This document shows, one piece after another, positions 55,107 through 64,000 of a stretch of DNA of 64,000 nt (positions are counted from its first letter, which is position 1; each line of letters begins with the position of its first letter). Location of the stretch: the NCBI RefSeq assembly GCF_900102215.1, contig NZ_FNBG01000003.1, positions 124,001 to 188,000 of the forward strand, in the 5' to 3' direction. Source of the stretch: Fontibacillus panacisegetis. GTDB lineage: Bacteria > Bacillota > Bacilli > Paenibacillales > Paenibacillaceae. The notes under the pieces are model-generated. The model saw only the letters and a program-made list of their open reading frames with translations, had not been told where the DNA came from and ran no database searches. The position numbers were made by a program, and so were the translations under genes.

Positions 55107-55709
55107 TTACTGCTCCCCGACCTTAAATATACGATCACAAATTCGATTCAACAGACTCGTCTCATGGCTGACAACGATAACTCCGATATCCCTGTTTTTG
55201 CAGATGTTAAGAAACGAATGCCAAATTTTAGCTTGAGTAATCGCATCGAGCATGGTTGTCATTTCGTCAGCAATGATATATCTAGTGGCAGGATTCAGCG
55301 CACGAACTATGCAGAAGCGCTGCTTCTCACCACCGGACAGCTCGACAGGCCAGCGACTTAGCCATTCCTCCCGTATTTCAAAGGCATCGAGAATTTCCTG
55401 TGAGGGTGCATAGGATTCAGTCAAAACATCGCGCATGCGCCACTTGGGATTAATTGCTTTTTCCGGGTGCTGGTAGATCAATTGAACGGGGCGAAAAGTA
55501 TGCCTCTCCATTACCTGATCATCCACCGTTACACGCCCTCTCTGAGGTGCAATGTACCCGGCCAAAATTCTGGAGAGCGTCGTTTTGCCGCAACCGCTAT
55601 AGCCGGATAATCCCAGCACCTCGCCTGGAGCTACAGATATGTTCGTATCCTTCAATATCCAGCGGTCCTTGTGATAATAGTAACCCAGATTTTCCCCAAT
55701 CAGAGACAT
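55107..55709 (-). CDS. Opine-metallophore ABC importer ATP-binding protein (CntF-like)
   Basis: A 200-residue ATPase with Walker A SGYSGCGKTTLSRIL, signature LSGGEKQRFCIVRAL, Walker B YIIADEMTTMLD and H-loop VIVVSHE. The IADEMTTMLDAITQAKIW block is the one found in nickel/opine-metallophore importers. At 200 residues it is shorter than the usual 250, lacking the zinc-peptide C-terminal part of OppF. It is the last gene of the five-gene operon and overlaps the previous one by ten bases. A link to zinc import is inferred from the Zur-type promoter. Confidence 0.8.
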   Translation of the reverse strand: MSLIGENLGYYYHKDRWILKDTNISVAPGEVLGLSGYSGCGKTTLSRILAGYIAPQRGRVTVDDQVMERHTFRPVQLIYQHPEKAINPKWRMRDVLTESYAPSQEILDAFEIREEWLSRWPVELSGGEKQRFCIVRALNPATRYIIADEMTTMLDAITQAKIWHSFLNICKNRDIGVIVVSHETSLLNRICDRIFKVGEQ

Positions 55710-56530
55710 GGTGCAACCACTGCCTTTCCCGTAACTTCCGTATCGAAATCATGCTGCGGTAAAGCTCTCCATAGCCTTTGGGTATATTCAGTTTTCAGCC
55801 GTTCACCATTGCCTTCAAAAGCCTCCGCCTCAGAGATTTCCACCGTAGTTCCGTCCTTGATGACAGCCACACGGTCCGCGATTTCAAGAGCCGACATGAT
55901 ATCATGGGTAATCAGCATCACTCCCGCACCATCATCGGCAAATTGCTTAAGCTGCTTCAAGATTTCAGCAAGCGCCTCAGGATGGATTCCGGGCGTTGGC
56001 TCGTCAGCAATAACAAGCTTGACGCCTTCCCTTACACTGGTTGCAAACAGCACCCTGCGCAGCATCCCGCCTGACAGCTCATGTGGAAACAGCCGACCAT
56101 CGCTATTGTTCAAGCCATGTTGTGCAAAGAGCCGTTCCTGCTGTGCCTTTGCTGATTTCTTATTCAGGCCAATCTGAACCTGCTTTCCGACACGCATAAG
56201 AGGATCAAGATAATTAACCGATTGTGGGATAAAGGAAATTTCGCGTCCCCTAAGCTGTCCCTTCCTTTTGTCGGTCAACTCTTCACCCCTATACATGATG
56301 CTTCCGAGGCAGATGGCATTGCCAGGCAAAATGCCTAGCAACGCATGTGCCAATAGGCTTTTACCTGAACCGCTTGCACCTACCACGGCCACAATCTCAC
56401 CTTCCGCAATGTCCACATGCATATCGTTGATCGGCCATATTACGCGCTTTTGCGTTCCCTTAACATATTGAGAGAAGCCAATCGACAGGTTTTCCACCTG
56501 TAGTAACGTTTTTTTCTGTGTTGAACTCAA
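55700..56530 (-). CDS. Opine-metallophore ABC importer ATP-binding protein (CntD-like)
   Basis: A 276-residue ATPase. Walker A VGASGSGKSLLAHALLGILP, signature LSGGMLRRVLFATSV, Walker B LVIADEPTPGIHP and H-loop MLITHDIMSAL. The long GNAICLGSIMYRGEELTDKRK loop is like NikD/OppD. The TTG start is well spaced from GGGGGA. It acts with the CntF-like subunit encoded next. Confidence 0.82.
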   Translation of the reverse strand: MSSTQKKTLLQVENLSIGFSQYVKGTQKRVIWPINDMHVDIAEGEIVAVVGASGSGKSLLAHALLGILPGNAICLGSIMYRGEELTDKRKGQLRGREISFIPQSVNYLDPLMRVGKQVQIGLNKKSAKAQQERLFAQHGLNNSDGRLFPHELSGGMLRRVLFATSVREGVKLVIADEPTPGIHPEALAEILKQLKQFADDGAGVMLITHDIMSALEIADRVAVIKDGTTVEISEAEAFEGNGERLKTEYTQRLWRALPQHDFDTEVTGKAVVAPCL

Positions 56531-56544
56531 GCTGAATCCCCCTT

Positions 56545-57414
56545 CTATTCATTCGAGCTTGCTGGTTCCAGCAAAATACGGAGCTGCTCACCTATACTGT
56601 CAAAACATTTAACGACAACTACTAACAGCAGACCCGGAAAAACAACCAGCCACCATTTTCCCGTTGAAATATGGCTCATCGCTTCAGACAATATAATCCC
56701 GATCGCCGGAGTTTGCGGAGACAGCCCGAAGCCGAGAAAGGTTAGCGCCGCTTCATGCAAAATCACATGGGGAAACATGAGCAAAAACCCGATCATAATT
56801 TGCGGAAAAATCGCTGGCATGATGTGCTTTCTTGCAATGTACCACGGAGATTTTCCATAGCTTCTGGATATTTGGATATATTCGGCGCTTTTGATTTGAA
56901 GCACTTCAGAACGCACTACCCTTGCTAATGCTGTCCAATGAGTTAAAGAAATGCTCAATACGATACCATGAATACCTCCACCTGCGATAAAGCAAATCAG
57001 AACCATAAATACAAGATGCGGCATACCAATAAATAAATCGATGATCCAGGAGATAACTGCATCCACCGCCTTACCAAACGTCGCCGCGCAAATCCCCATA
57101 ACCGTTGCGATAATAACGCTGATCAAGGAGGCGAATGCCCCCACTGCCAATGACAGACGCAAACCCTTCATCGTTCGCGTCAGCATATCCCGTCCAAGCC
57201 AATCCGTTCCGAACAAATGTCCCAGACTTGGGGCAAGGTTTTTGTTCGTTGCATTCAAGCGAAGATGGTCATTGCTTAGCCAGAAGCTAAGTATCAGAAT
57301 GATGAGCAAAAAACCGGAGGATATCGTTAGCCACAAGAGCATTTTTTTTCGGACATTAAATTCCCCGCCTACTTTCACTCCTTGGACTTCGATCTCCTCT
57401 TGTATACTCAGCAT
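56545..57414 (-). CDS. Opine-metallophore importer permease (CntC-like)
   Basis: A 289-residue permease of the OppC/NikC type with six helices. The extracellular-facing N-terminal segment has LGHLFGTDWLGRDMLTRTMKGLRLS near 60, typical of this subunit, and the coupling loop SRSYGKSPWYIARKHIMPA near 170. ATG 57414 was chosen for GGGGGTGG upstream. It directly follows the CntB-like gene. Confidence 0.85.
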   Translation of the reverse strand: MLSIQEEIEVQGVKVGGEFNVRKKMLLWLTISSGFLLIILILSFWLSNDHLRLNATNKNLAPSLGHLFGTDWLGRDMLTRTMKGLRLSLAVGAFASLISVIIATVMGICAATFGKAVDAVISWIIDLFIGMPHLVFMVLICFIAGGGIHGIVLSISLTHWTALARVVRSEVLQIKSAEYIQISRSYGKSPWYIARKHIMPAIFPQIMIGFLLMFPHVILHEAALTFLGFGLSPQTPAIGIILSEAMSHISTGKWWLVVFPGLLLVVVVKCFDSIGEQLRILLEPASSNE

Positions 57415-57415
57415 A

Positions 57416-58381
57416 CTAAACCACCCCCTTCGTTCGTGGATCAACGATTCTGTTCAACATATCAGCAATCAGATTGCCTGCAAATACAAACAAGGAGCTG
57501 ATCAGAATAATGCCTACCATTAAGGGAAGATCACCTTTTAAACCGGCAGTCGTCAAGGTGCTGCCAAGCCCCGGATAAGCAAACACCTGCTCCGCCAGCA
57601 TAGAGCCTCCGAACAGCTCGCCAAAATAAGCAAATTGCAGGGATATGGCAGGAATGATGGAGTTACGAAAGCCGTGGTTTTTGAAAATTTGCCATCGGCT
57701 TTCGCCCCTCGCCATAGCAAAGGTAACGTACTCCGTGTTCAGGATATCGATCATTTTCTCGCGCGTATGCATCGCCACATTGGCAACGCCCAGAATGCTT
57801 AAAGTCAGAGCTGGCAGCACAAAATGATGAATCCGGTCAATGAAACGCACTTCGCTTTCCAGCATTCCAGCCGGAACCGCCAAGCCTACGGGGAACCACT
57901 TAAGCCAGACGGCAAACACGATTAACAGTATAAGCCCCATCCAGAAAATAGGGGTGGATACCAGCGTATAGCTGTACCATTTAATGATTTTATCTATTTT
58001 TTTACCCCGATTCATAGCAGCGGTCATCCCTAGCAAATACCCGAAAACCCCTGATAAAATCCACGCAGTGCCCATTAACGCCAATGAGGTCAAGAATCGA
58101 CTCTGGATAATATCAATGACCGGACTCCGATACAGCTTAGAGATGCCAAAGTTGCCCTCCAGCATCGCCCCTGCCCAGAACAAGTATTGCTCTACCGGGC
58201 TTTTATCCACGCCCCAATACTCTTTAAATTTCTCAATTTGCTCCGGCGATGCCGAGCTGTCTCCGCCGATGTATGCGTTAACCGGATCAAGGGGGGACAG
58301 ATGAATCAACGAAAAAGTCAGGACAGATAACCCGAATAACAGCGTTACTACACGAATCAGGCGGACCACTATGCTTTTCAT
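57416..58381 (-). CDS. Opine-metallophore importer permease (CntB-like)
   Basis: A 321-residue OppB/NikB-type permease. The opening MKSIVVRLIRVVTLLFGLSV leads to the first helix; the periplasm-like loop has PVNAYIGGDSSASPEQIEKFKEYWG and the coupling loop ARGESRWQIFKNHGFRN near 210. Its stop and the next start are one base apart. ATG 58381 avoids overlap with the binding-protein gene and gives the usual length. Confidence 0.85.
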   Translation of the reverse strand: MKSIVVRLIRVVTLLFGLSVLTFSLIHLSPLDPVNAYIGGDSSASPEQIEKFKEYWGVDKSPVEQYLFWAGAMLEGNFGISKLYRSPVIDIIQSRFLTSLALMGTAWILSGVFGYLLGMTAAMNRGKKIDKIIKWYSYTLVSTPIFWMGLILLIVFAVWLKWFPVGLAVPAGMLESEVRFIDRIHHFVLPALTLSILGVANVAMHTREKMIDILNTEYVTFAMARGESRWQIFKNHGFRNSIIPAISLQFAYFGELFGGSMLAEQVFAYPGLGSTLTTAGLKGDLPLMVGIILISSLFVFAGNLIADMLNRIVDPRTKGVV

Positions 58382-58386
58382 TACGA

Positions 58387-60051
58387 TCATTTGCCCCAAG
58401 TCCATTCTGTAACATTGCCAAACAAAGCCCATTCATGACCGTGGGAGTGAATCGGCTGCTTGCCGAGATCCAGCTTCTCATTAGCCAGGTACAAATGGTC
58501 TACACGCACCAGCCAAACAATCGGCGCATCTCCAATTCCGCTAAATCCGGTTGTTCCATCCCACTGAGCAAGCTTCCAGTACTTGTTTGACTCCTCCTGA
58601 GTAGGTGCGGTTAACGCCTTGTCCAGATACTCATCGACCTTGGGATTGCGATAATATGACATATTGTTGATGCCCTGATCGAACACCTTGGAGGAATTCA
58701 TTGTGTATAGCTGATGTGGGTGATGTCTCCCCCCTCCCCAAGCCACTGCGGCGGTCTTGCCTTTCACATAAATATCATCCCAGGTCGTACCCACCGTGTT
58801 CATCTTGATGCCGAATTCAGCGGCCTGATCTGCTACAGCTAATGAAAGGTCACTGCGAAGCTGGTCACTTGAGCTAAAATAAAGGGTAAACTCAGCTTTG
58901 CGACCGTCTTTTTCTACAATTCCGTCCTTGTTCGTATCCACCCAGCCCCCATCAGCAAGTATCTTTTTGGCAGCTTCGACATCACCATCCTCAGTAACGG
59001 TCTCTTCGTTAAACCACGGCATATTGTCACAAAGACAATACGCCTTCTGCCCGTAACCGTTCAATGCGACATCAAGAAGCTCCTGACGGTTAAGACCAAC
59101 ATTCAGAGACTGACGTATTGCGAGATCGCTGGTCACATCATTGCCGTACTCCACCTCTTTGCCATTAGTCAGACCTTTGCCGCCGCTCGGTTGTGTAGGC
59201 AGCATAATTCCACGGGAGTCAATGCTCTCATATATGCGAAGTGTCATCCCCTCCACCTGCTGCTCCGCGAATGTCGGAGGAACATAGACGATGTCGGCCT
59301 CACCAGCCTTTGCAGCAGCCAATGCGGCGTCCTCTTCATACAGCAGAAAAGTCAGCTTTTTGAATTGGGGCTCTGTCCCGTACCAGTAAGGATTGTATTC
59401 CATAATAACCTGCTGCCCATCATCGTATTGAACAATCTTATACGGTCCTGAACCAATCGGATTCTGTGAATAATGGTCATCGTAATGAGCCTTCGGAACA
59501 ATCCCGATCTCAGTGAGCTGGCTTACAAAGGTGGAACGCGGCTCGTTAAGTGTAATGACAACGGTGTGGTTATCAGTAGCTTCAATCGATTTCACAAACG
59601 ACAAATCGAATTTAATACCGTCCTCTTTAAGCATTTCATATGTAAACTTTACATCTCCCGCGGTAACCTGCTCCCCGTTGGAGAATTTAGCATCCTCGCG
59701 TAATGGGAAGGTCCACGTCAGCGCATCCTCGCTAATCGTATAGGATTTGGCAAGATCCCCGATAAAGTTAAGCTCTGGGTCAATCGTAAGCAACGAGCTA
59801 TGCGTCAGACGAATTTGTGTCATTCCCCAGCCTTTCTTCGGATCAAACTGCCCTCCGTCCATTTTTCCTACTGCAAGCACCAATTCCTCTTTATCCGTTT
59901 GCGAATTTATTGCACTAGATGCATCATGATTTGCTGTCAATTCAGATGAACCAGACTCACAGCCTGTCAATAACAAAAACACCGAAAATGCGCTTAGAAA
60001 ATACGATAAAGCCCTCTTTCTTGCTAACCATCTTCTATTTGATGCTCTCAT
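58387..60051 (-). CDS. Opine-metallophore ABC substrate-binding lipoprotein (CntA-like)
   Basis: A 554-residue solute-binding lipoprotein of the OppA/NikA/CntA family. The signal peptide ends in LLLTGC (cysteine near 31). The binding fold includes GMTQIRLTHSSLLTIDPE, SNGEQVTAGDVKFTYEML, IGSGPYKIVQYDDGQQV and HHPHQLYTMNSSKVF, the last with several His residues near the predicted pocket. GGAGG lies before the ATG. Its promoter contains a Zur box, so zinc starvation should induce it. Substrate is inferred to be a zinc-opine complex. Confidence 0.85.
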   Translation of the reverse strand: MRASNRRWLARKRALSYFLSAFSVFLLLTGCESGSSELTANHDASSAINSQTDKEELVLAVGKMDGGQFDPKKGWGMTQIRLTHSSLLTIDPELNFIGDLAKSYTISEDALTWTFPLREDAKFSNGEQVTAGDVKFTYEMLKEDGIKFDLSFVKSIEATDNHTVVITLNEPRSTFVSQLTEIGIVPKAHYDDHYSQNPIGSGPYKIVQYDDGQQVIMEYNPYWYGTEPQFKKLTFLLYEEDAALAAAKAGEADIVYVPPTFAEQQVEGMTLRIYESIDSRGIMLPTQPSGGKGLTNGKEVEYGNDVTSDLAIRQSLNVGLNRQELLDVALNGYGQKAYCLCDNMPWFNEETVTEDGDVEAAKKILADGGWVDTNKDGIVEKDGRKAEFTLYFSSSDQLRSDLSLAVADQAAEFGIKMNTVGTTWDDIYVKGKTAAVAWGGGRHHPHQLYTMNSSKVFDQGINNMSYYRNPKVDEYLDKALTAPTQEESNKYWKLAQWDGTTGFSGIGDAPIVWLVRVDHLYLANEKLDLGKQPIHSHGHEWALFGNVTEWTWGK

Positions 60052-60110
60052 GAGATACCTCCACAGTATGGTTGTTTATTAATAATAATCATTACTATTA
60101 ATATCGTGTT

Positions 60111-60140
60111 AATTGTAATTATTACGATTAAAATTGTCAA
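60111..60140 (-). promoter_or_regulatory. Promoter of the importer operon with a Zur box
   Basis: On the minus strand TTGACA (60135-60140) and TACAAT (60112-60117) are 17 bases apart. The Zur-type sequence AATTGTAATTATTACGATT (60111-60129) covers the -10 and part of the spacer; it differs from the Bacillus Zur box (AATCGTAATNATTACGATT) at one position. Confidence 0.82.
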
Positions 60141-60214
60141 TAATTTCTTCTTCTTTATATGGAATCACAATGTAAAAGAGCTTTTCACTAATAGACGAAC
60201 AACCAAAATTATCG

Positions 60215-60249
60215 TATAATAACATTGTTATATAACATCGTTATATAAC
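60215..60249 (+). promoter_or_regulatory. tetR promoter region with twin GTTATATAAC palindromes
   Basis: TATAAT at 60215-60220 is followed by two perfect 10-bp palindromes GTTATATAAC at 60227-60236 and 60240-60249, 13 bp apart. The position just past the -10 suggests autorepression by the TetR protein. No clear -35 is visible. Confidence 0.6.
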
Positions 60250-60277
60250 GTAATCACAAGGAAATGGGGGATCATTA

Positions 60278-60799
60278 ATGCCACCAAAAGCAAAGGTGTC
60301 CCGTGAAGAAATACTTGATAAAGCCTTTGAGCTTACGAGGAAAAACGGTTACGAGAATTTGACGGCCCGATTACTAGCGAAGGAGCTCAATTGTTCTACA
60401 CAACCCATATTTCATATCTTTGAAAATATGAATCATCTTAAAGCGGCTTTATATGATAATGTCCGCCTTTATTTCTCAGAGGTAATGAATACGCCATCTA
60501 CAGATCCTGATATTCCACTGTTTCTAAGTATGGGGTTAAGCTATCTGGAATTGGCGCAAACAGAAAAACATCTGTTTCGATTGTTATGTATGTCGGATTC
60601 TTTTCAGCTGGATAGCTTGTATGAATTGGCTGGTAAAGACATACCTTCTTTGGATTCCAAAGTAATTACAAAAATGTGGATTTTCACACATGGGATCGCT
60701 TCTATTCTAGCCACAAATACGACCGTACTACCGAAGACCGAAATTCGTGAGTTGCTTATCGAAGTTTTTCAAGATTTCTATCACGGTAAACCAGATTAA
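60278..60799 (+). CDS. TetR/AcrR family regulator
   Basis: A 173-residue regulator. The helix-turn-helix is SREEILDKAFELTRKNGYENLTARLLAKELNCSTQPIFHIF at about 8-48, with the STQPIFHIF recognition helix. A helical ligand domain follows. It lies 24 bp before the acyltransferase gene and shares its direction; twin palindromes in its promoter suggest it controls this pair. GGGGG lies before the ATG. Confidence 0.88.
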   Translation: MPPKAKVSREEILDKAFELTRKNGYENLTARLLAKELNCSTQPIFHIFENMNHLKAALYDNVRLYFSEVMNTPSTDPDIPLFLSMGLSYLELAQTEKHLFRLLCMSDSFQLDSLYELAGKDIPSLDSKVITKMWIFTHGIASILATNTTVLPKTEIRELLIEVFQDFYHGKPD

Positions 60800-60823
60800 T
60801 TCTTTGAAAGAGGTGTAAGTATA

Positions 60824-62092
60824 ATGGACGTTAAAATTAGTAAGGAACGCACACATTTGTTTTCACCTAACATCAACATCGGGGTGATGGTTCAAATTAC
60901 GGGTGATGTAGAGCTGAATCTACTTGAATCTGCCATCTCTCGAGCTGTATCCAACAATGAAATTTTGAAATGCAAAATTCGAATTGCTGATGATGGAGAC
61001 GCTTATTATTCCGTACAAGCAAAACCATGTTATTCCTTCAGCGTTACTAATCTGGAATGGCAAGAAATAATCAAGCAGCAAGAACGCATTCCTTTTCAAT
61101 TAAAGCAAGGTGAACTTATCCGTTTTTTCGCAATACCTCAGGACAACTTCGTTCGATTAGTCATTGTAGCTCACCACCTTGCGGGTGACGGACTGTCCAT
61201 TTCGTACTTGCTAGAAGATATTATGAATGCACTTGCGGGTAATCCTCTTACATACAAGCCATTACAGCTCTGGTCAACGGAAAACAAGGATGAGTACGGC
61301 AAGTTAAATCCCTTTTTGAGAATTATGATGTCAAGACTAAACAAAAAGTGGAATAAGTCGGGGAAGGTCTTTTCTTTCGAGGATTATGAATGGATGTTTC
61401 ACACCTATTGGACAGAACGAGAAGCGGCTATTTTTACTCAAAACATACGTAAGGGTGATCTCACTAAACTGCAAGAGTTGTCTAAAGCCAATTCCGTCAC
61501 ACTGAATACCACGATTTCAACCGCATTTATTAAGGCTGCCAAAGAAAAATCAGATGTAGGTATGGCAGTTAGCATACGTCCTGAAGGCTATTCTGGCATG
61601 GGAAATTATGCTAGTGGAATCTCGATACAATACACTTATGATCACGCAAAGAATTTCTGGGAAAATGCACAAGTGGTACACAGCCTTATTTACGATAAAT
61701 TGAATAACAATGCTAAAAAATATTTCTTATTACAGTTCATGAGTGGGCTGGCCCCCACCTTGATTGACGCAGCCTACTTCGCTGCCTTTGATGGATATTC
61801 GAATAAAGCAGCAAAGACGATGCAAAAAATGTTCGGCTATAACGGAAATCCTAAAGCAATTAGCCTTACCAATTTGACCAAACTCAATATTCCTGCTCAG
61901 TATGGAAAATACGCTCTATCTGATTTTACAATGGTTCCACCACTTGTACCCAATGGCAAACGTGTCATAGGAATAGCTACATTGGAAGAAACACTAACCA
62001 TCTCTATGCGCGTAGAAAAGAATACGATCACTCCATCTGAAAAGGTATTCTTCGAAAATGCTATACAGGAACTCATGCCATATCAATCTTAA
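60824..62092 (+). CDS. Condensation-domain superfamily acyltransferase
   Basis: A 422-residue stand-alone protein with the HHxxxDG motif (VAHHLAGDGLSI near residue 115-122), the active site of the NRPS condensation/alcohol-acetyltransferase fold. A second half from about 200 contains SVTLNTTISTAFIKAAKE and VSIRPEGYSGMGNYAS, the hallmark region of the family's latch strand. It would transfer an acyl group to an amine or alcohol. No carrier-protein or adenylation gene is beside it. Paired with the TetR gene. Confidence 0.78.
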   Translation: MDVKISKERTHLFSPNINIGVMVQITGDVELNLLESAISRAVSNNEILKCKIRIADDGDAYYSVQAKPCYSFSVTNLEWQEIIKQQERIPFQLKQGELIRFFAIPQDNFVRLVIVAHHLAGDGLSISYLLEDIMNALAGNPLTYKPLQLWSTENKDEYGKLNPFLRIMMSRLNKKWNKSGKVFSFEDYEWMFHTYWTEREAAIFTQNIRKGDLTKLQELSKANSVTLNTTISTAFIKAAKEKSDVGMAVSIRPEGYSGMGNYASGISIQYTYDHAKNFWENAQVVHSLIYDKLNNNAKKYFLLQFMSGLAPTLIDAAYFAAFDGYSNKAAKTMQKMFGYNGNPKAISLTNLTKLNIPAQYGKYALSDFTMVPPLVPNGKRVIGIATLEETLTISMRVEKNTITPSEKVFFENAIQELMPYQS

Positions 62093-62241
62093 TTACCTTA
62101 ATGCTCTCTGTTTAAGTCCAGATATAAACATAACCAAAATTGCGAATTTTGAATGCTTCAAACTGAGGCGGTATGTTATAACCCATCCATATGGGACCTG
62201 TGAAAAAAACAGCCCAATTCCATTTGGATTTTTTCGGAAAG

Positions 62242-62287
62242 GCCCTAACCTTAGATAGCAAGTCTATCATAGGTCAGGGCTTCTTTT
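62242..62287. terminator. Bidirectional terminator between the acyltransferase and EamA genes
   Basis: GCCCTAACCTTAGATAG pairs with CTATCATAGGTCAGGGC in a long stem with one mismatch and a bulge, followed by TTCTTTT. It separates the convergent genes. Confidence 0.78.
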
Positions 62288-62322
62288 AATGCTCTTTGCA
62301 TGATTTATGCAACTATCGTTTA

Positions 62323-63183
62323 TCAATCTTTTTTTCTCACTTTAGTTATAGCAATACATCCACCTACAATCAGAATCATGCCTATGATCGAGAACGCATC
62401 AGGTATTTCCAGCCAAAAGGCAAAGCCCCACAACGCATTAAACGCAATTCCGATGTATCGCACGATTTCGACGACCACCGCATTTTCATGAGTAAAAGCC
62501 TTAGTTAAAAATACTTGTGCCAGCAAGGAAATGACTCCGATACAGATCAGATATAACCACTCTTCAGCACTCGGTATTACAAATTTGCTCCACATGAGAG
62601 GAATGGATATCAATGTTGCCGTGACCATGAAATAAAATATAATTTCGTATGTGTGATGCTTTTGACCTAAATACCTTATGCATATCCCCGCTCCAGCAGA
62701 AAACAAAGCAGCCAAAATCCCCAGTAAAGCAACGATCGAATAAGTAGAATATCCGAATGGCTTTATAGTAAACATGACTCCGGCAACAACACTCGGCATG
62801 ATGAAATAAACTTTAGGCGGAATCTTCTCCTTCAGGAAAAGCCTGGACAGCAGAATCGTGAAAATAAGCGATGTATTGATAAGAATAATGGCATCCACCA
62901 AAGGCATATGAGCGATCGTGTAAAAATAAAAAATCATGTATAATGCTCCGCAGCAGCCCCGTAAAACCAGCATCGGAATGCCCGCTTTTGAAAACGGCAC
63001 CTTATCTTTTTTCATAAAATACACAATCATCATCGTTCCTATCAAGCTACGGAAGAACACAATCTCATTAGAAGGAATCGATGCTGCTGTTGCTTTCACG
63101 AATGCGTTCATGATGCTGAAAATGAAGCTGGACGCAATCGCATACAATATCCCGCTGATGGCTGGATGATGGTTAATCTTCAT
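62323..63183 (-). CDS. EamA/DMT family transporter, candidate metallophore exporter
   Basis: A 286-residue protein with ten membrane helices in two EamA repeats: SSFIFSIMNAFVKATA at the start, FFRSLIGTMMIVYFM, and a second repeat from about 150 with ISLLAQVFLTKAFTHENA. Its start codon overlaps the stop of the opine dehydrogenase gene by 11 bases, so both are made together. In Pseudomonas aeruginosa the EamA protein CntI exports pseudopaline and is encoded with the dehydrogenase. A similar role here is inferred from that pairing. Confidence 0.82.
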   Translation of the reverse strand: MKINHHPAISGILYAIASSFIFSIMNAFVKATAASIPSNEIVFFRSLIGTMMIVYFMKKDKVPFSKAGIPMLVLRGCCGALYMIFYFYTIAHMPLVDAIILINTSLIFTILLSRLFLKEKIPPKVYFIMPSVVAGVMFTIKPFGYSTYSIVALLGILAALFSAGAGICIRYLGQKHHTYEIIFYFMVTATLISIPLMWSKFVIPSAEEWLYLICIGVISLLAQVFLTKAFTHENAVVVEIVRYIGIAFNALWGFAFWLEIPDAFSIIGMILIVGGCIAITKVRKKD

Positions 63184-64000
63184 AGCAAACGAATGTCAAC
63201 TCTTCATCGAGGCTTTTCAGCGCAAAATCATCTGATAACAAGGAGTCCCGATGCATCAGCGCAAACAAGCTCAACTTTTGCTCATAGAGATTGATCATTT
63301 TATCTATAGTAGGTGTCCCCAATGCTTGATTACGCGCTAAACCTTGTAATATTTTCAGCCTGTAATAATCTTCATTTGGCACTCTTGGCACACACCAATA
63401 ACCTGCCTCATTTTGATATACCTTCTGGATAGGGACAGCCGAGAAATCAAAATACCTGCCATTTGCATCCGGAGTCGAGAATGGATCAATTAATAGAGAA
63501 GCATAACGGATATACAACAAATACTCTTGCTTGATCGCAGAAAATGAGGTGAAATTCTCAATATCTTCTCGTGATAAGCTCTCTGTCCTTACTGGATAAT
63601 TATCATCATTCATAAATTGAAGCAGATTAAATTGCTCTACATTAAAGCCATTTAATATCCCTGTGATTTCCTCCCACTGCATGAGCAGATCGTGTATAAC
63701 ATACTGAGTGATCGGTCCTTCCGGGTAAAACTTGTACGCATACTTTAAGGTCCCGTCTTCTCCAAATATATAGTTTAATGCGTATTCGTTCATAAATATC
63801 GGCGAATGTACATAAATGGAGATATTTCGGCTCTCCGCTACAAAGGGATCTCTCGTTAATTCAGCGGCAATCCCCAATGTACGAAGCCAATCTATCAGCT
63901 GCCGGGCAGCATCGGAGTTTTTACTTGTTGAGCCCAAGTAGATTTTCTTTTTCACACCTTTGGTCAATACTTCAATCGCCGAGTTTTTCCCCTTGGTCGC
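63173..64000 (-). CDS. Opine metallophore dehydrogenase (CntM-like), C-terminal part, cut by window edge
   Basis: The open frame continues past the right edge, so only about 275 C-terminal residues are seen; the NADPH-binding half is outside. The visible part matches staphylopine dehydrogenase: GVKKKIYLGSTSKNSD, ISIYVHSPIFMNEYALN, PEGPITQYVI, NLLQFMNDDNYPVRTESLS, EYLLYIRYASLLIDPFSTPD and GRYFDFSAVPIQKVY. CntM condenses the aminobutyrate-histidine intermediate with a 2-oxo acid by reduction. The His in IYVHSP is probably catalytic. It leads an operon with the EamA exporter. Confidence 0.85.
   Translation of the reverse strand, partial: ATKGKNSAIEVLTKGVKKKIYLGSTSKNSDAARQLIDWLRTLGIAAELTRDPFVAESRNISIYVHSPIFMNEYALNYIFGEDGTLKYAYKFYPEGPITQYVIHDLLMQWEEITGILNGFNVEQFNLLQFMNDDNYPVRTESLSREDIENFTSFSAIKQEYLLYIRYASLLIDPFSTPDANGRYFDFSAVPIQKVYQNEAGYWCVPRVPNEDYYRLKILQGLARNQALGTPTIDKMINLYEQKLSLFALMHRDSLLSDDFALKSLDEELTFVCYED

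Follow-up and report, generated by a model that had tools for sequence, protein, structure and literature searches.

A putative zinc-controlled opine-metallophore locus with a separate YntA-like importer operon in Fontibacillus panacisegetis

Gene organization of the locus

The window, i.e., the whole stretch of 64,000 nucleotides that was analyzed, corresponds to G000:C49:124001-188000 in a host genome of 5.26 Mb and 76 contigs. The contig continues past the window end, and the region beyond it was covered by L002 (C49:178000-197900). A preliminary description of the window had placed five minus-strand importer genes, an EamA transporter gene and an open dehydrogenase frame here; all of these were recovered at the same coordinates, and the two blocks quoted as characteristic of the dehydrogenase, EYLLYIRYASLLIDPFS and GRYFDFSAVP, both lie within its frame at 63173-64000. 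The features are as follows, in window coordinates unless C49 is given.

55107-55709, minus strand: importer ATPase 2; NikE is the top NCBIfam match (117.5 bits; cut-off of 354 not reached)
55700-56530, minus strand: importer ATPase 1; NikD is the top NCBIfam match (136 bits; cut-off of 318.7 not reached)
56545-57444, minus strand: importer permease 2; Pfam BPD_transp_1, Opp/Nik-type models
57416-58432, minus strand: importer permease 1; Pfam BPD_transp_1, Opp/Nik-type models
58387-60051, minus strand: importer binding protein, YntA-like, solute-binding lipoprotein type, 554 aa; Pfam SBP_bac_5, PDB 4ofl
60113-60127, unstranded: Zur-box-like site, 62 bases upstream of the binding-protein gene, one mismatch to WCGTAATNATTACGW
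60278-60799, plus strand: TetR gene, between the importer and cnt operons
60824-62092, plus strand: condensation-domain gene with HHLAGDG motif, between the importer and cnt operons
62323-63183, minus strand: EamA-type exporter; Pfam EamA 111.8 bits, 11-base overlap with cntM
63173-64000, minus strand: cntM, C-terminal 275 codons; whole gene G000:C49:187173-188453, 426 aa
C49:188456-189256, minus strand: cntL, 266 aa; upstream of cntM, outside the window
C49:189290-190111, minus strand: cntK, 273 aa; upstream of cntL, outside the window
C49:190222-190236: Zur-box-like site, 111 bases before cntK, one mismatch

The search for cntL and cntK past position 64000 that the preliminary description had proposed thus located both genes directly upstream of cntM. 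The genes cntK, cntL, cntM and EamA are tightly packed on one strand, with two bases between cntL and cntM, and the importer operon, the sole importer at this cassette, lies 2.3 kb away.

Synthesis enzymes

Full-length CntM matches Pfam family Staph_opine_DH (PF10100) with 564 bits (cut-off 25) and aligns with structures of staphylopine dehydrogenase (E 5.9e-102) and pseudopaline dehydrogenase (E 1.1e-81). This profile search, likewise suggested beforehand, assigns the enzyme to the staphylopine dehydrogenase family, and chance can be ruled out for the predicted membership. CntL scores 32.2 bits against Pfam NAS (PF03059; cut-off 27.1) and aligns with structures named D-histidine 2-aminobutanoyltransferase (E 6.6e-59). 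CntK matched no Pfam family; it aligns with structures deposited as diaminopimelate epimerase (E 1.6e-39), which we take to be S. aureus CntK, and both cysteine motifs (FCGNATMS and CGSG) are aligned. CntK (214 bits against 300), CntL (267 against 350), CntM (457 against 675) and CntA (93 against 800) all scored below the curated cut-offs of the NCBIfam staphylopine equivalogs. As judged from these scores, the three enzymes are family members and not close copies of the staphylopine system.

The cluster also displays the features that define opine-type zincophore clusters in the available part of PMC7438024, i.e., a dehydrogenase of the CntM family, a NAS-type synthase gene directly upstream of it, and genes for efflux (EamA, adjacent) and import (SBP_bac_5, BPD_transp_1) no more than six ORFs from cntM. 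The earlier suggestion that this organism makes its own metallophore is supported by the run of cntK, cntL, cntM and EamA with their family matches, and metallophore synthesis is a well-supported prediction. That the dehydrogenase would instead make another opine, outside any metallophore pathway, is most improbable: the sub-cut-off NCBIfam score speaks for it, with no further support found, but cntL and cntK lie directly upstream and an exporter downstream, the PF10100 match reaches 564 bits, and a Zur-like box is present.

Predicted product

According to the rules given in the accessible text of Morey and Kehl-Fie 2020 (PMC7438024), a racemase implies incorporation of D-His, and the residue at SaCntM position 150 indicates the keto acid, Asp for pyruvate and Ala for alpha-ketoglutarate, with the caution that position 150 is not the sole determinant and that further residues contribute. 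Both sequence hallmarks of a bacillopaline producer are found in the host, i.e., a histidine racemase and, by alignment, Ala at position 150 of CntM (STYYAATK). Across 55 aligned CntM rows, this position is occupied by Asp in 39 and by Ala in 16. Under these rules, the combination of racemase and Ala150 predicts bacillopaline, which is most likely the product. Staphylopine, with pyruvate replacing alpha-ketoglutarate, or a further modified compound is unlikely; the incompleteness of the position-150 rule, as worded in the part of PMC7438024 available, and the condensation-domain gene between the two operons would accommodate such a product, but the host enzyme carries Ala150, like the Pseudomonas enzyme, and the condensation-domain gene is without counterpart at the other cnt loci read.

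A tailoring module formed by the TetR and condensation-domain pair was considered and dropped: tblastn against the other cnt loci read gave no hit, and within the genus a relative occurs only in G228 (31%).

Lineage of the synthesis cassette

Of the 295 genomes in the family sample, 88 have a PF10100 match. The genus contributes 40 genomes, all within that sample; full-length matches occur in the host (G000), G136, G238 and G263, and a fragment in G248. A midpoint-rooted maximum-likelihood tree was calculated from 55 CntM rows, comprising the 30 best family loci, 22 rows from 20 hand-chosen loci, the host, Anaerobacterium chartisolvens and G1058. In this tree, for which the program issued a long-branch warning, host CntM pairs with that of A. 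chartisolvens (support 100/92) and falls outside a 40-row family clade (100/99) containing the three congeners. A second midpoint-rooted tree of 36 rows, without G1058 and with the clade thinned, gave the same topology (98/96 and 100/99).

The A. chartisolvens cassette (L003) has the same gene order, with identities to the host of 68% for CntK, 69% for CntL, 70% for CntM and 78% for EamA; CntM identity between the host and its congeners is 50%. Two of the 391 sampled genomes in the class of Anaerobacterium lie above the family cut-off, one being Anaerobacterium itself and the other G1058 (L088), which was read by tblastn. The simplest reading of these comparisons would be transfer of the cassette between distant hosts, in either direction. 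GC content was tried as a sign of transfer and is uninformative for the cassette (43.2%; window, 43.0%); the importer has 47.7% and the TetR and condensation-domain genes 39.1%. As three cluster-1 loci with EamA in place of MFS are described in the available part of PMC7438024, the EamA build may already have been seen. Elsewhere, G069 and G024 (L048 and L049) each carry two CntL-CntM-EamA sets at most 10 kb apart.

Divergent from cntKLM-EamA in Anaerobacterium is an ECF transporter (L003:5044-7884; S component Trep_Strep, T component CbiQ, double ATPase). In the accessible text of PMC7438024, the importers given for such loci are solely of the Opp and FecCD types, and a literature search returned no paper joining a zincophore with an energy-coupling factor; this transporter, seen at a single locus, is a possible third importer type at cnt loci.

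Zur-like boxes and zinc control

In line with the proposed division of the locus into two operons, each is preceded by a Zur-box-like site with one mismatch to WCGTAATNATTACGW, the consensus of the Bacillus Zur box. With at most one mismatch, this motif occurs at nine sites genome-wide, five within reading frames and four in intergenic positions before metal-uptake-type operons, i.e., the importer (window 60113-60127), cntK (C49:190222), znuC (C45) and an ECF operon (C52). Allowing up to two mismatches gives 113 sites in the genome versus 109 for a reversed control, i.e., no enrichment, so it is position that carries the argument for zinc control. Among relatives, 11 of 21 cnt loci have a box of two mismatches or fewer ahead of the first gene used, including eight of the nine with a CntK hit, where gene starts were taken from tblastn hit edges and at some loci the importer gene served as first gene; the background is 2.6% of 4000 random 410-base stretches from the fetched loci. 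Control of both operons by zinc, through putative Zur sites, is thereby supported. The box at 60113 is, in addition, 151 bases upstream of the TetR gene and may work in both directions.

The ECF operon on C52 (L041:7731-15383) comprises an AraC regulator, an S component (Trep_Strep), two ABC half-transporters, a T component and a double ATPase. Its Zur-like box (one mismatch) precedes the S gene and is identical to that of cntK, a perfect Fur-type box lies 29 bases before the start, and the S component is 26% identical to its Anaerobacterium counterpart. As a metallophore importer this operon was rejected; the Fur-type box and the low identity make iron likelier, and it perhaps serves siderophore uptake under double control.

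A YntA-like importer group

The binding protein of the window is YntA-like, matching nickel-binding YpYntA in the PDB (4ofl; E 8.2e-108), and those at other cnt loci of the family, which mostly have Opp-type importers, are 21-27% identical to it. Of the preliminary assignment of this importer to an opine-metallophore system, the five genes stand, but the metallophore role is plausible only, the importer being YntA-like and non-orthologous.

Within the family sample, 62 genomes have YntA-like proteins (E up to 1e-90), at 64 places in all; nine of these, the window's included, are at 79-100% identity and 55 at 37-49%. All nine were compared with 21 of the 55 distant places, namely G136 and 20 picked, non-randomly, across genera. 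In the 400 bases upstream of the gene, nine of nine members of the group have a Zur-like box of three mismatches or fewer, as opposed to none of the 21 comparison loci; at stricter limits, the nine yield eight (at most two mismatches) and seven (at most one). Zinc-type neighbors, i.e., cobW, znu or DUF1980 genes, are present at four of the nine loci. Downstream of its importer, G233 has cobW, znuC, znuB, znuA-like and Fur-family genes, and G248 has cobW, a 173-aa ZnuA-domain gene and a gene of the Fur family; in G243 and G281, cobW and DUF1980 genes are close to the importer. No such neighbors were found within the 20 kb read in G260, G150, G240 and G156.

Furthermore, the binding protein has 36 columns in which all nine members share one residue and 20 or more of the 21 comparison proteins share a different one; they include seven Arg/His positions (R81, H84, R172, H189, R442, H444 and R516). 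The stretch R442-H446 is presumably close to the His of E. coli NikA that binds nickel. A urease hit was obtained at none of the nine loci; only one of the 21 comparison loci has one, which makes urease linkage a weak criterion. In G136 (L087:5200-15215), a full cnt cluster is followed on its own strand by a YntA-like importer, beyond which lie urease genes. G136 was dropped as linkage evidence for metallophore uptake, its importer being 45% identical, devoid of a Zur-like box and near urease genes.

Importer carriers without synthesis genes

Orthologues of the importer, at 79-81% identity, are found in eight other genomes, seven of which have no PF10100 (cntM) match; likewise, the CntL model gave no match in seven of the eight. 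In G248, a cnt operon scar (L083:8162-8373, on G248:C121) lies 28 kb from the intact importer. Its first piece consists of 16 residues resembling the start of CntK (E 0.003, weak alone) and the second, one base on, of 23 residues resembling CntM 276-298 (E 5.6e-7), and a Zur-like box with two mismatches is located upstream. By eye, the scar stretch also contains a Fur-family regulator and a GTP-cyclohydrolase-like gene. G240 carries an orphan CntL/NAS-like gene (L117:10067-10762, on C22; 32% over 237 aa) without cntM, 59 kb from the importer and among apparent sugar-transport genes.

The boxes in all nine loci, taken with the carriers that have no cntM, indicate that the importer group is zinc-controlled and mostly stands without synthesis genes. 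The group would either have another ligand or scavenge metallophores made by others.

Proposed mechanism

The locus as a whole is probably a zinc-starvation system based on an opine-type metallophore, most likely bacillopaline, with the YntA-like importer returning zinc. When zinc is short, Zur would leave its boxes and both operons would be read. CntK would convert L-His to D-His, CntL would add aminobutyrate from S-adenosylmethionine, and CntM would reductively join alpha-ketoglutarate, whereupon the EamA protein would export the product. The five-gene YntA-like ABC importer, responding to the same signal, would return zinc, most likely as a zinc-metallophore complex. This model connects the enzyme families, gene order and box-like sites observed here with a predicted product, putative Zur binding and a presumed importer ligand; we infer that uptake of the host's own product is the likeliest use of the importer. 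Against it stand the sub-cut-off scores of the enzymes, the lack of enrichment of the box motif over its reversed control at up to two mismatches, and an importer that is non-orthologous to other cnt importers, nearer to a nickel-binding protein and, in seven of eight other carriers, unaccompanied by a cntM match.

The same YntA likeness would suit an importer that is a separate zinc/nickel system merely beside the synthesis operon, with the metallophore returning elsewhere or the importer taking another zinc complex. The seven genomes that have an orthologue but no cntM match agree with this account, as does the fact that a Zur-like box points to zinc control and not to a ligand, and in Proteus mirabilis, according to the available part of PMC11026637, nickel for urease is imported mainly by Ynt. 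We nevertheless consider it rather doubtful: this is the sole importer at the cassette, 2.3 kb away and with its own Zur-like box, which nickel alone leaves unexplained, and its Arg/His positions are unlike those of the comparison group.

A broader extension of the metallophore-uptake model is possible, and we put it forward tentatively. The YntA-derived, Zur-controlled group may represent stand-alone uptake of zinc-opine-metallophores, most carriers scavenging the metallophores of their neighbors; the host would then combine this importer with a synthesis cassette whose lineage it shares with an anaerobe, and G248 would be a producer turned scavenger. Relatives that are unable to make the compound keep a zinc-controlled importer group, and zinc-chelator theft between bacteria thereby becomes testable in closely related strains.

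Comparison with known systems

The host adds a predicted bacillopaline producer of unusual build, with a racemase, an EamA exporter and a separate YntA-like importer. Compared with the cnt loci of its family the locus is unusual, in that a YntA-like importer under predicted separate control replaces their own importer type. In Paenibacillus mucilaginosus, the bacillopaline locus, according to the available part of PMC7438024, shares CntK, CntL, CntM, Ala150 and the product predicted for the host, but has an MFS exporter and an importer within the cluster in place of EamA and a separate YntA-like importer operon. The Anaerobacterium chartisolvens cassette has the cntKLM-EamA order and Ala150 of the host, whereas its neighbor is the divergent ECF-type transporter and no Zur-like box was found there, as opposed to the box and YntA-like importer of the host. 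The Staphylococcus aureus staphylopine system has the same three enzymes by family, but differs in Asp150, an MFS exporter and another importer, the host having Ala150 and scores below the NCBIfam equivalog cut-offs. Finally, the host binding protein is homologous over its length to YntA of the Ynt nickel importer (E 8.2e-108); Zur-like boxes and Arg/His residues fixed within the group nevertheless set the host importer group apart from Ynt, and the 45% identical relative in G136 lies near urease genes.
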